Positions 58,969-62,764 of a DNA stretch of 64,000 nt are shown piece after piece. Source of the stretch: Bacteroidota bacterium (GTDB taxonomy: Bacteria > Bacteroidota > Bacteroidia > Flavobacteriales > Flavobacteriaceae). The DNA lies in contig JAKQHT010000023.1 in assembly GCA_029557895.1 (NCBI GenBank), positions 62,001-126,000 of the forward strand, written 5' to 3'. Numbering within the stretch: position 1 is the stretch's first letter; every line of letters begins with the position of its first letter. A program made the position numbers and the translations under genes. A model generated the notes under the pieces. It worked only from the letters and a program-made list of their open reading frames with translations. It did no database searches and had not been told where the DNA came from.

Positions 58969-60534
58969 ATGAACCTACGACCCATAACCCTAACGATGAG
59001 TCTTTTTTTGGCATGTAATCTTGGCATGGCCCAATCAGAGTCGGGTTTGACACAGGACAATAGCCCCGACCTTGCAACCATTGACCCCGTTATCCAAGCT
59101 TCCGAGACAGGAAGCGCTACGACTTTGACCACCAAAGACAGTATCAAGCAAAAAGTTTTTCTTGACAACCAACAAGCATCCATATATGATGAAAAGTGGC
59201 TTGAGGAGCTATACAGCAACACCCTTTATGACACCATTTACGAATCCATATTGGACATAAAGTTTGACGAAGTCGATTTTCCGGAGCTCCCTACGGACAC
59301 CCTGAAAAAGCGACTCGAAAAAATGGGCTCCAAGACGCCCTTCAATATTGAGTATAATCCAGGACTTGAGAGCGTTATCAAATCGTATTTGAAAAACCGA
59401 AGAACCACATTGCAAAAGTTGATGGCATTGAGCGAATACTATTTCCCATTGTTTGAGAAAGAACTCGACAACATGGATGTACCGCTTGAAATCAAATATT
59501 TGGCAATCGTAGAATCCGCCTTAAAACCAAGAGCCAAATCACGCGTTGGCGCCACAGGCCTTTGGCAGTTTATGTACCCGACGGGGAAAATGTACGGTCT
59601 CAACGTCACCAGTTATGTTGACGACAGGTGCGACCCCATAAAATCGACCATTGCAGCCAGCAAATACCTTGCAAAGTTGTACGAAATTTTTGGAGATTGG
59701 GACTTGGCCCTTGCGGCCTATAATTCCGGTCCGGGCAACGTCAGTAAAGCCATTCGGCGCTCGGGAGGATACCAGAATTACTGGAACCTCCGTCCGCATT
59801 TGCCTCGTGAAACAGCCGGTTACCTTCCAGCATTTTTGGCAACTATGTACATTTTTGAATATGCCGAAGCCCATGGATTCAAGAAAGCGGCTTCTGGATA
59901 CCGCTATATGGAAACCGATACCATCCACGTAAAACAAACCATCAGTCTCGACCAAGTGTCTGAACTAATGGACATTCCAATTGAAGAATTGCAATTTCTT
60001 AACCCTGCCTACAAGCTAGACATCATCCCATATGTTGAGGAAGAAAATTACACATTGCGATTGCCCAGACATGCCGTTGGTAAATTTGTCACAAACGAAA
60101 AAGAAATTTACGCACACGTACAAGCAGAGCTTGATAAGCGCGAAAAGCCACTTCCACAGTTGTTTCAGCAGGACAGCAAGTTGACTTATAAGGTTCGTTC
60201 GGGAGATTATTTGGGCAAAATTGCCAGAAATTACGGTGTGCGTTTAAGCGATTTAAAAAAGTGGAACGGATTGAGGAGCAATGATTTGAAAGTAGGACAG
60301 CGCCTTGTTATCTATTCCAAAAGTGCAGTAACCACCACAGTTACCAAACCGGCAGCAAGTACCGTGAAGGTGGCTGCTTCGGAGAACCAAAAAACCTATA
60401 CGGTAAAAAAAGGCGACTCGTTGTGGAGCATTTCACAAAAATTTTCCGGAGTTTCTGTTGACGATATTAAAGAATGGAACGATATTAGTGGTAACAATTT
60501 AAAAGTAGGAACCACCCTAAAAATATCTAAATGA
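58969..60534 (+). CDS. lytic transglycosylase with LysM repeats (MltD-like)
   Basis: A 521-residue secreted peptidoglycan lyase. A signal peptide ends near residue 22 (LACNLGMAQ). The SLT catalytic domain is about 165-320, with the catalytic glutamate in IVESALKPRAKSRVGATGLW and AAYNSGPGNVSKAIRR. Two clear LysM modules bind the cell wall: YKVRSGDYLGKIARNYGVRL and YTVKKGDSLWSISQKFSG. A third, weaker LysM-like region lies near residue 325 (LDQVSELMDIPIEELQFLNP). It overlaps the DUF4837 gene by four bases (ATGA), so the two are coupled. Confidence 0.92.
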   Translation: MNLRPITLTMSLFLACNLGMAQSESGLTQDNSPDLATIDPVIQASETGSATTLTTKDSIKQKVFLDNQQASIYDEKWLEELYSNTLYDTIYESILDIKFDEVDFPELPTDTLKKRLEKMGSKTPFNIEYNPGLESVIKSYLKNRRTTLQKLMALSEYYFPLFEKELDNMDVPLEIKYLAIVESALKPRAKSRVGATGLWQFMYPTGKMYGLNVTSYVDDRCDPIKSTIAASKYLAKLYEIFGDWDLALAAYNSGPGNVSKAIRRSGGYQNYWNLRPHLPRETAGYLPAFLATMYIFEYAEAHGFKKAASGYRYMETDTIHVKQTISLDQVSELMDIPIEELQFLNPAYKLDIIPYVEEENYTLRLPRHAVGKFVTNEKEIYAHVQAELDKREKPLPQLFQQDSKLTYKVRSGDYLGKIARNYGVRLSDLKKWNGLRSNDLKVGQRLVIYSKSAVTTTVTKPAASTVKVAASENQKTYTVKKGDSLWSISQKFSGVSVDDIKEWNDISGNNLKVGTTLKISK

Positions 60535-61508
60535 AACGTTTTCCGCTAATTGCCATTTTTTCGCTCTTAACTTTGATAAATTGTGATGAAAGACCCAACC
60601 AAAAACTGATACCACAGTCCTCGGGCAACATCAATACACTGTTGGTCGTAATTGACAATTTGCTTTGGGACGATTCAGTAGGAGAAGGCATTCGCGAAGC
60701 GTTTGCCGCTCCCGTACAAGGACTTACCAACGAAGAACCGATTTTTTCAATCAGCCAGATGCCCACTTCGGTTTTTTCGGGTTTTGCCACAAAAAACCGG
60801 ATTGTTCTGAAGATCGATAAAGGCAGTCCTGCCGGAGTTGCATTTCACAAAGACGCTTTGGCAATACCACAGACCATGGTAGTAATTTCCGGGAACACAA
60901 ATCAAGAAATCATCGACCAGATAGAAGCCAATGCCGATACAATCATAGCAACTTTCAAAAAAGAAGAAATCAAGGAAAAACAAAGGCGCATCAAGCTTTC
61001 ACTACACGACACAAAAGCCATACAGGAACAATTGGGCATCAACATTGATTTCCCGACCGTATATCGGATAGCAACCCACAGCGACAACTTTTTTTGGATC
61101 AGAAAGGACATCATTACGGGCAATATGGATTTTATGATTTACCAAGTACCCTTGGACAAGATCCGCAATACAGACAGCACATTGGTGGGGGATATCATCA
61201 AAATGCGCGATTCCATAGGTAAAGCACACATACAGAGCTCTACCGAAGGTGCTTATATGATTACGGAAGAAGCCTTTGCGCCCTATGTGTTCCAAACGAC
61301 CATAGACAATAAACCGACCATCGAGACCAAAGGCATCTGGGACATGAAAAACGCATTTATGTCCGGGCCGTTCATCAATTATGCCATTGAAGACAAGGCA
61401 AACAACCGATACCTGGTGCTCGAAGGCTATGTGTTTGCACCCTCTATTGAAAAGCGCGACTACGTTTTTGAACTTGAAGCAATATTAAGATCTGTAAAGT
61501 TTAAATAA
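60531..61508 (+). CDS. DUF4837 lipoprotein
   Basis: A 325-residue lipoprotein of the DUF4837 family, known almost only from Bacteroidota. The lipobox ends LTLINC (Cys at about residue 19). The family pattern is recognisable: NTLLVVIDNLLWDDSVGEGI, NRIVLKIDKGSPAGVAFHKD and the C-terminal YLVLEGYVFAPSIEKRDYVF. Function unknown. The close coupling to the transglycosylase gene suggests a cell-wall or envelope-maintenance role (inference). A terminator follows four bases past the stop. Confidence 0.85.
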   Translation: MKRFPLIAIFSLLTLINCDERPNQKLIPQSSGNINTLLVVIDNLLWDDSVGEGIREAFAAPVQGLTNEEPIFSISQMPTSVFSGFATKNRIVLKIDKGSPAGVAFHKDALAIPQTMVVISGNTNQEIIDQIEANADTIIATFKKEEIKEKQRRIKLSLHDTKAIQEQLGINIDFPTVYRIATHSDNFFWIRKDIITGNMDFMIYQVPLDKIRNTDSTLVGDIIKMRDSIGKAHIQSSTEGAYMITEEAFAPYVFQTTIDNKPTIETKGIWDMKNAFMSGPFINYAIEDKANNRYLVLEGYVFAPSIEKRDYVFELEAILRSVKFK

Positions 61509-61511
61509 AAC

Positions 61512-61541
61512 AAAAGGCCAACTGGAAAGCCGGCCTTTTGC
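61512..61541 (+). terminator. intrinsic terminator after the DUF4837 gene
   Basis: CAAAAGGCC pairs with GGCCTTTTG around a 12-base loop. The T run is four bases, short but adjacent to the stop codon. Confidence 0.7.
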
Positions 61542-61586
61542 TGATAAAAATGCGTTAGCGGTCAGCTAATAACCGACACAAAAGTT

Positions 61587-62210
61587 ATGACAGACAGAAA
61601 ATATTTAAACCAATTAAGAACACCGACAAAAGACAATCCGCTTAGAATTTTAATGAGTGCTTGTTTGTCGGGAATTACTTGCGGTTATGACAGTACTGCC
61701 AATGGCGAATACCCTACTGCTTTAAAAATTTTACAGTATGACACGGCTAAAGTCGTGAAGTTTTGTCCCGAAGAGTTTTCCTACGGAACGCCAAGAGAAA
61801 TGAGCGACATTCACGGTGGTACGGGATTTGACGTTTTGGAAGGCAAGGCAAAAGTGTTATCAGAAAGTGGGAAAGATTGGACAGAAGGAATAATTAAAGC
61901 CTCTGAAAAAATGCTTGAAATTGCTAAAAAAGAAAACATTGAAATTGCCGTATTAATGGACATAAGTGCTGCTTGTGGCAGTCAGGTAATTTATGATGGC
62001 AATAGATTTTCCGAAAATAAAGTGTATCAAATTGGCGCAGGTGTGGCTGCCGCACAATTAATAAGAAACGGATTTAAGGTGATAAGTCAAAGAGATTATG
62101 CGTCACTTGAAATTTTGTATTCAAAACTTAACCCTACACATCTAATTGACAAAACCAAAATTGACCACCACGAAATTGCGTGGTACAAAGAATATTTTAA
62201 TATGGACTAA
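61587..62210 (+). CDS. DUF523/TudS-family protein
   Basis: A 207-residue protein of the DUF523 family, which includes thiouracil desulfurase TudS, an iron-sulfur enzyme. The conserved cysteines are present: C26 and C32 in SACLSGITCGYDS, C60 in KFCPEEFS and C130 in SAACGSQV; three such cysteines hold the cluster in characterised members. It is longer than the usual 150 or so residues, with extra sequence at both ends. Its place inside a cassette-like insertion and its A/T-richer codon use point to horizontal acquisition. A role in RNA or metabolite desulfuration is inferred only from the family. Confidence 0.78.
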   Translation: MTDRKYLNQLRTPTKDNPLRILMSACLSGITCGYDSTANGEYPTALKILQYDTAKVVKFCPEEFSYGTPREMSDIHGGTGFDVLEGKAKVLSESGKDWTEGIIKASEKMLEIAKKENIEIAVLMDISAACGSQVIYDGNRFSENKVYQIGAGVAAAQLIRNGFKVISQRDYASLEILYSKLNPTHLIDKTKIDHHEIAWYKEYFNMD

Positions 62211-62227
62211 CATAAACTAAAAGAACT

Positions 62228-62407
62228 ATGAATAAACAGACAAATTATTTTTTTCTATCAGGTTTTTTCTTTGTGGTATTAATTATAATGGAATTTACCG
62301 ACATCTATGAACCGCCCATATGGTTTAAGGTATTTCTAATAATTTTATGCGTTGCTTTTTTAATTAGCGGATTTGCAAATAGGACAAAGGACAATAACAA
62401 GGAATGA
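62228..62407 (+). CDS. small hypothetical membrane protein, 59 residues
   Basis: A frame from ATG (62228) to TGA (62407), 17 bases after the DUF523 stop. It has two hydrophobic helices: about 8-22 (FFLSGFFFVVLIIME) and about 33-51 (FKVFLIILCVAFLISGFAN), ending in a charged tail (RTKDNNKE). Very A/T-rich: 14 G+C in 60 bases at 62221-62280. Position and size suggest it is a second gene of the same cassette. No family recognised. Confidence 0.6.
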   Translation: MNKQTNYFFLSGFFFVVLIIMEFTDIYEPPIWFKVFLIILCVAFLISGFANRTKDNNKE

Positions 62408-62423
62408 GAATAAAAATAGCCGA

Positions 62424-62556
62424 ACCGCTAACAAGGTATTGCCGCAATGGGGGGGGGGGTGAAGTGCTTCTATGAAACTTTTGTGGGTAAACGAACATTG
62501 CTGCATCTATTGAACATTAGTGCTAAAAATCCCCCACTGCGGCAATACCCAAAACG
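62424..62556 (+). repeat. attC-like long inverted repeat with G11 tract
   Basis: Core ACCGCTAAC at 62424-62432; then GGTATTGCCGCAATGGGGG (62435-62453) pairs with CCCCCACTGCGGCAATACC (62531-62549) over 19 bases with one mismatch, separated by 77 bases. The left arm runs into an 11-base G tract at 62449-62459. The loop contains a GAAGTGCTTC hairpin and two GAACATT copies. The size (about 130 bases) and layout fit large attC sites or a repeat family that mimics them. Confidence 0.5.
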
Positions 62557-62572
62557 GTAAAACCCAAAAGTC

Positions 62573-62764
62573 TTATTCTTTTTTATCTGAAGTATCCTTT
62601 TTTTCTGAATCGTCCTTGCTGGCGTCCTTAAATTCCTTGATCCCGCTTCCAAGTCCTCGCATTAATTCAGGGATTTTTTTTCCGCCGAACAATAACAGAA
62701 CCGCGAGCGCAATCAATACCCAAGAACCGGGTCCAATAGCCAATACAATGCTTGCTCCGCTCAT
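62573..62764 (-). CDS. tatA: twin-arginine translocase subunit TatA/TatE
   Basis: Small inner-membrane component of the Tat pathway, which exports folded proteins. The 63 residues contain one N-terminal helix ([20 protein letters not shown]) with the FGGKKIPEL motif that starts the amphipathic helix, and a charged cytoplasmic tail. No tatC or tatB is in the window; TatA of Bacteroidota often stands apart. It is divergent from the M23 peptidase gene at 62880 and convergent with the cassette. TatA versus TatB is decided by the short size. Confidence 0.9.

Follow-up and report, generated by a model that had tools for sequence, protein, structure and literature searches.

A lone integron-like cassette between DUF4837 and tatA genes and a candidate cassette system of Bacteroidota

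Genes and features of the locus

The window, that is, the whole 64,000-nt stretch of DNA analysed here, carries near its right end a DUF4837 gene (60531..61508, + strand; PF16125, 319.6 bits) and a tatA gene (62573..62764, − strand; PF02416, 63 bits). Between them lies an inserted cassette of 1002 bp (61554..62555, + strand), whose junctions were read from the sequence. The left junction is C61553|G61554 and the right junction is C62555|G62556, inside CAAAAC|GG. Because one G is common to both junctions, a cassette at 61555-62556 would be indistinguishable from one at 61554-62555. The first cargo gene (61587..62210, + strand) encodes a 207-aa protein of the DUF523/2-thiouracil desulfurase (TudS) family (PF04463, 90.2 bits; TudS structure 6z92, E 5.7e-9). 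The second ORF (62228..62407, + strand) encodes a hydrophobic protein of 59 aa, for which no Pfam or NCBIfam match was found. This is the cargo that had been read from the letters alone in the original prediction, which gave a drop to 14 of 60 G+C in the second gene; as measured here, G+C is 0.289 in the 59-aa ORF and 0.369 in the cassette, against 0.415 in the window.

The left end of the cassette, an R′-type sequence GTTAGCGGT (61554..61562, + strand), is the exact nine-base complement of an R″-type box ACCGCTAAC (62424..62432, + strand). This box opens an attC-like recombination site of about 135 nt (62424..62555, + strand; reported by the models as 62424-62563), which scored 124.9 bits with model R1 and 111.9 bits with model R2. 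Its stem is an inverted repeat of 19 nt with 95% complementarity and covariation, the 5′ arm lying at 62435..62453 and the 3′ arm at 62531..62549 (both + strand). Both the nine-base complementarity and the long inverted repeat at the right end thus stood as originally described. The left flank was intact as well, with a terminator-like hairpin recognised by eye (61512..61540, + strand) that resembles hairpins of the sister loci L106-L108. The right flank after the insertion (62556..62572, + strand) reads C-GGTA, where array sites mostly read C-GTT.

Complementary ends at such a spacing are not rare, since 8 of the 1292 GTT starts in the 64-kb window have a nine-nt complement 600-1200 nt downstream, so that outside support is needed. 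The case for the attC-like site is accordingly carried by its family membership (the R2 score of 111.9 bits). The R2 scan of the 64-kb window gave this one significant site, the next match having only E 0.84. The cassette has a single site, no attI and no adjoining integrase, which is most simply read as a lone cassette at a secondary site, outside attI. The suggestion that it might be of the CALIN type had to be given up, as the definition given in PMC9668308 calls for two sites.

The locus was compared with those of related genomes. A DUF4837 match was found in 36 of 40 near genomes (the window's own included), and 30 of these loci were fetched for gap scoring. Both DUF4837 and tatA were found in 18 of the 30, always convergent; the remaining 12, in which tatA was absent from the fetched stretch, are uninformative on the gap. 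The aligned ends of the two genes are 1079 nt apart in the window's genome; in the other 17, including three of the same genus, only 20-115 nt separate them. Judged from this comparison of sequences, the cassette is an insertion into a short DUF4837-tatA intergenic gap. At E ≤1e-10, the DUF523 protein was detected in 3 of 148 genomes of the order, again including the window's own. The fetched stretches around its relatives in the other two genomes held no attC, and in this sense the very cassette of the window was not found elsewhere.

A covarying family of attC-like sites

BLAST detected sites related to the window's hairpin in its own genome (twice on contig C4 and once on contig C8), in three further genomes of the order, for which 148 were searched, and on Empedobacter and Adhaeribacter plasmids. 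Neither of the two findings that the original prediction had named as speaking against itself appeared: the site is empty in the sister genomes scored and the repeat has other copies, in the same genome and in relatives.

Model R1 was built from ten sites and showed compensatory change at 9 of 22 pairs. In model R2, built from 68 sites with an alignment fitted to the structure, 91.5% of cells were paired and two-sided changes occurred at all 22 pairs, with a covariation of 0.630 compared with a shuffled mean of 0.150 and with 0.036 to 0.079 in slid controls. Helices 1-4 together showed 312 two-sided changes and 16 that were one-sided, of which 14 fall at a single T-G position. This excess is more in keeping with a hairpin of DNA than with one of RNA; the inner helix 5, which is weak, was unlike the others, with 16 two-sided and 18 one-sided changes. 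The folding energy of the hairpin is unimpressive by itself (z −1.66 and −2.54), so that it is covariation, not energy, that carries the case for the hairpin. When R2 was run over the 30 DUF4837 loci (118,560 bases), two matches were obtained at E ≤1: the site of the window itself and a second match at E 0.25. The integron trait of folded sites at cassette ends that are conserved in structure and variable in sequence is thus present, and the reading of the insertion as a single integron-type cassette with an attC-like end gains a covarying 68-site family.

A search of Rfam for a family matching the attC-like site returned two chance matches below gathering scores (best E 0.0074), neither of them on the hairpin, and they were rejected. 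A run of 11 G in the stem (62449-62459) exceeds that of the related sites in alignment A3 by about five and reflects either slippage or an assembly error. GTGC boxes recur in the attC loops about 18-19 nt apart, for example at L028 11777-11911 (seen by eye, uncounted), and may be putative extra protein-binding sites.

Cassette arrays beside a tyrosine recombinase

An attI-like site lies beside a tyrosine recombinase on contig C14 of the same assembly. The original prediction placed the cassette far from any integrase; this holds for its surroundings, where there is none, and fails for the genome as a whole. Contig C14 is 18 kb long and its array runs off the contig end, the assembly being 85% complete. 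The recombinase, a 344-aa protein (P0001), is the best match in the window's genome to the integron integrase model TIGR02249, with 203.8 bits against a cut-off of 265, and it passes NF040815 (XerA; site-specific tyrosine recombinase/integron integrase) with 225.6 bits against a cut-off of 220. A scan of 84,980 species genomes with this integrase yielded 108 relatives, of which the best 80, equal to 79 loci, were analysed. Nearly all of these 79 loci are labelled Bacteroidota; five are labelled otherwise (Ignavibacteria twice, Rhizobium, Azoarcus and an unplaced bacterium), by labels taken as recorded that may include binning errors.

R1 gave 79 matches at E ≤0.1 over the 79 loci, and the 59 at E ≤3.1e-5 were tallied. 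Of these strongest sites, 56 are found on the integrase strand, 3′ of the gene, one lies upstream, one is on the opposite strand and one is in L101, a locus with an incomplete integrase that was left unscored; sequence downstream of the integrase makes up only a third of the bases in the loci. The 20 weaker matches outside the tally comprise 12 downstream on the same strand, two upstream and six minus-strand shadows of counted sites. Three loci (L043, L089 and L101) lack a complete integrase end and were dropped; of the 76 scored, 32 had at least one of the 59 sites downstream and 44 had none (contig ends, divergent sites).

The attI-like motif TAYANNNNAGTTR occurs within 200 nt of the integrase stop in 58 of 69 loci with enough sequence and in 11 of 1432 control windows, a descriptive figure rather than an independent test, as the pattern was made from these same sequences. 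It is absent from the remaining 11 loci, and its median position is 102.5 nt past the stop. On contig C4, an attI-like sequence with CGTT for AGTT precedes the first cassette, with no integrase adjoining.

Complementarity of the cassette ends is independent of the attI pattern. It is what excision and insertion of circular cassettes predict, whereas a chance repeat predicts none. From a pool of 114 matches, the 10 without both cores were dropped and 104 sites kept; among R2 matches in loci chosen by canonical IntI or by R2 (see below), 6 of 53 were dropped, having E above 1e-4 or being other-strand shadows. When the right end of one site was compared with the R″-type box of the next, at least five of six variable positions agreed in 48 of 62 consecutive pairs, the same rule as at the left end of the window cassette. 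Shuffling consecutive sites 5000 times gave a mean of 5.2 and a maximum of 14 such pairs, and within a single site the two boxes agreed in 6 of 104 cases. For first cassettes, the end on the attI side agreed with the cassette's own attC box at five or more of six positions in 15 of 15 cases within 1.5 kb (shuffle mean 3.2, maximum 10), in 19 of 21 within 2.5 kb and in 24 of 29 overall. The agreement spans nine positions (at least 82% at each) and breaks at the eleventh (5%). The mismatching ends (14 of 62 consecutive pairs and five of 29 first cassettes) are either skipped or decayed sites or errors of site picking.

The C14 integrase and its relatives

Catalytic residues are invariant or nearly so among 47 aligned members of the integrase group. 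The distance between boxes I and II is 91-92 aa in all 65 measurable rows of 81, compared with 133 aa in 11 of 12 canonical IntI proteins and 98 aa in one of the two Xer-like proteins of the window's genome. This short stretch indicates that the IntI-specific insertion, the additional domain near patch III, is absent from C14-type integrases. The insertion is treated as a defining trait in the account of PMC9668308, and in that of PMC8138268 as essential for integron function, though incompletely conserved. A quick tree of 60 proteins, in which long branches were flagged, separated the new integrases (branch support 96) from canonical IntI (100), with the recombinases of the tet(X3), blaVEB and immunity arrays described below standing beside, outside, the new group.

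The structure of the C14 integrase was predicted with pLDDT 85.9 and pTM 0.56. Its predicted core aligned with XerA (5hxy; Z 23.8, rmsd 15.0, 258 residues aligned) and with an integron integrase (2a3v; Z 21.5, rmsd 3.7, 260 aligned). An N-terminal extension of about 60 aa lies outside these matches, as the matched stretch starts near residue 65. HARP (PF07443) matched two of 47 full-length members (best 1.9e-7). Among 42 integrase N-termini searched at E ≤1, four matched HARP and 20 matched DUF5710. Foldseek ranked the HARP domain of SMARCAL1 (4o66) first for the N-terminal module, at E 0.36, and VIA-align found no match for the module at Z ≥5. These matches hint weakly at a module of the HARP/DUF5710 type. 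We propose that it would stand in for the IntI insertion and help to grip the folded attC.

Proposed explanation and alternatives

We consider it highly probable (about 0.9) that the insertion is a single mobile cassette belonging to an integron-like system of Bacteroidota and placed outside attI, between DUF4837 and tatA. Pairing of two attC-like sites, one or both presumably folded from a single strand, would allow the recombinase to release a cassette as a circle, which it would then join to attI at the GTT core. Occasionally it would join a cassette to a loosely matching chromosomal site, as in the window, with the DUF523/TudS gene and the small hydrophobic protein as passengers. Cassette recombination itself is something we infer from the sequences, and a C14-type integrase would be the simplest author of the window insertion. 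Insertions at attG sites have been described for classical integrons, and we liken the insertion at a secondary site in the window to these. Several points weigh against this explanation. The integrase and the window cassette are on different contigs, and the right junction, C-GGTA instead of C-GTT, implies a poor-match target or a decayed site. The exceptions given above for consecutive pairs, first cassettes, downstream sites and the attI-like motif, and the R2 matches in genomes with neither integrase type given below, count on the same side.

Alternatively, the window may hold a canonical integron cassette moved by an ordinary IntI that is, or once was, present in the lineage. The attC-like geometry and GTT-type ends are common to integrons, IntI above the cut-off was found in 105 of 395 sampled genomes of the phylum (one of the 105 belonging to the window's class or nearer), and a class 1 integron contains a VEB-1 cassette whose attC is of the R2 type (see below). 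Against this, no canonical IntI above the cut-off was found in the window's genome, which is 85% complete, the best match (204 of 265 bits) being the C14 protein. Nor do R2 sites follow IntI: they were present in 38 of 105 genomes with canonical IntI and 146 of 290 without, which is no enrichment. The new integrase was counted in the same genomes at E ≤1e-70, a threshold that takes in relatives without the N-terminal extension. R2 sites occurred in 184 of the 395 genomes, the integrase or a near relative in 113 and both in 99, so that sites were present in 99 of 113 genomes with the new integrase versus 85 of 282 without. Where the integrase was among the closest, 37 of 38 genomes had sites. 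Among genomes with IntI alone, 13 of 77 had R2 sites; among those with the new integrase alone, 74 of 85 did. The 72 of 205 genomes with R2 matches and neither integrase type suggest either that orphan sites are common or that integrases were missed; missed integrases and sites are likely because the searches score only a few candidates per genome.

Individual loci gave a similar picture. Twelve loci chosen by canonical IntI contained one weak R2 match in total (E 8e-4), whereas in five of the eight selected by R2 the sites are preceded, on the same strand, by a relative of the C14 integrase. As for the other three R2-chosen loci, the integrase lies 8.6 kb beyond the fetched stretch on the expected side in G048 and about 190 kb away, beside other sites, in G223, and the genome search of G415 found no integrase at E 1e-70. 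In the genomes G447 and G428, for which stretches of both systems were available, R2 sites occur only in the stretches with the new integrase. Judged by these distributions and by the missing IntI-specific insertion, the attC family and the C14-type integrase are not the canonical IntI/attC pair, and we regard movement of the window cassette by an ordinary IntI as very unlikely.

Less probable still is a repeat-mobilised unit without an integrase, in which the hairpin would be a terminator, a REP-like repeat or an IS200/605-type repeat and the cargo would have arrived by another route. A strong hairpin 3′ of a gene, in single copy in the window, would suit such a unit, but the complementarity of cassette ends, the strand-biased placement of sites 3′ of one integrase group and the attI-like junctions are not expected from it. 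That there was no insertion at all, the pair of genes being ancestral and the relatives having lost it, can practically be dismissed, given the short gap in 17 of 17 scored relatives (three of the same genus), the rarity of the DUF523 protein in the order (3 of 148 genomes) and our failure to find any support for it.

Relation to integrons and other known systems

The proposed mobile cassette system shares with integrons a tyrosine recombinase, an attI-like primary site, a co-oriented cassette array and, at the end of each cassette, a folded attC-like site with R″/R′ complementarity and a GTT core. It differs from them in that the integrase is without the IntI-specific insertion and carries about 60 extra residues at its N-terminus, the cassettes run in the direction of the integrase gene with attI on its 3′ side, identity of the ends reaches 9-10 nt, and the attC loops are of a different family. 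A large survey of integrons lists one complete integron in Bacteroidetes proper, that of Salinibacter ruber M1, in its account of the phylum (PMC9024848); by contrast, of the 395 genomes sampled here 184 have R2-type sites and 113 have the integrase or a near relative. What emerges looks like a widespread, overlooked gene-shuffling system of Bacteroidota, which also appears to carry antibiotic-resistance and gut-bacterial immunity genes. Our literature search recognised no description of this integron-like system; the original paper on rAID systems, reportedly Ross et al. 2019, may already draw a comparison with integrons.

Systems for recombinase-associated acquired interbacterial defence (rAID) of gut Bacteroidales consist of a predicted tyrosine recombinase and, behind it, a series of short genes that share one orientation and have conserved motifs between them, as outlined in PMC12247911, where their origin is called an area of active research. 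On a Bacteroides ovatus plasmid (L218 2719-6798), a related recombinase, 47% identical to the new integrase over residues 75-340, is followed by immunity-type genes with compact intergenic sites. We read this, from its annotation, as a rAID system. The end rule was obeyed in three of five automated pairs of its sites. The first pair was mis-picked by the pattern (four of six positions), although its first end, TTATGAAC, matches by eye, and the last pair agreed at two of six; the count is kept at three of five. Compared with the new system, the L218 sites are compact (about 50 nt, with a CCATTA core) and undetected by R2, and the cargo is of the immunity type. The window's cargo, a DUF523 gene and a small hydrophobic ORF, includes no array of rAID-type orphan immunity genes. 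A relation between the two systems would therefore lie at the level of the recombinase and the site rule.

Resistance genes were found in similar settings. In Paenimyroides aquimaris (L026 11283-12446), a protein 84% identical to Tet(X3) is encoded between two attC-like sites 3′ of an integrase; the cassette ends match, and the first of the two sites is weak (E 2.6e-5). A tet(X)-like fragment also precedes a site at L213 19534-19998 (68% over 155 aa), where it is cut by the locus end. On plasmid pJAT2044 of Acinetobacter baylyi (L219 2519-4669), tet(X3) has beside it a recombinase that is related to the integrase but shorter, and is itself followed by a partial attC-like site (34.4 bits). The longer 3′ sequence of L222 scored 17.7 bits (E 0.051), indicating that only the 5′ half of an attC-like site is there. 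The xerD-tet(X)-res unit of Acinetobacter has been linked to ISCR2 in the account of PMC8635130, and the relevant passage of PMC7473080 leaves it open what XerD does next to tet(X) and mentions that tet(X14) has no integron beside it. These Acinetobacter plasmid units differ from the new system in their shorter recombinase, cut-off attC and ISCR2 link.

On a Klebsiella plasmid (L223 4133-5754), blaVEB-3 directly follows an integrase relative and an attI-like sequence that was recognised by eye and is one base off the motif. In a class 1 integron of an Escherichia coli plasmid (L227 3443-3578), the attC of the blaVEB-1 cassette matched R2 (38.8 bits, E 4.4e-7), as the only match at E ≤1 in a 5.9-kb stretch with other cassettes present. 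IntI1 can thus apparently take such cassettes. We consider the tet(X), blaVEB and immunity-array observations to be leads with sequence support.

A broader scenario, which we offer tentatively and give somewhat less than an even chance, is that Bacteroidota have an integron lineage of their own. It would use a XerA-like integrase without the IntI insertion, with a HARP/DUF5710-like module that maybe binds folded or forked attC; it would have built the rAID arrays, and the tet(X) and blaVEB cassettes later seen in other bacteria would have originated in it. Should these prove to be working integrons, the view that the IntI insertion is required would have to be revised, and one could trace where some cassettes of clinical class 1 integrons came from. 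They would also provide testable mechanisms for the building of rAID arrays, an open question in the discussion of PMC12247911, and for the "XerD" beside tet(X) in that of PMC7473080.

Other cargo was noted in the loci. On a Flagellimonas plasmid, a cassette between two sites (L217 2891-3735), beside erm(F) and an integrase relative, encodes a RibD_C/dihydrofolate reductase-family protein; it was considered as a resistance gene and rejected, the protein being of the RibD_C type of this family. The window's own genome contains defence-type cassettes (L013 348-2440 and L228 4489-8000), with a methyltransferase accompanied by a MjaI-type endonuclease, and with GmrSD_N and Abi_2 proteins between two sites. 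Group II introns that target attC are known, and reverse transcriptases of group II introns were found near or inside arrays at L011 1636-2952 and L215 15762-17078.
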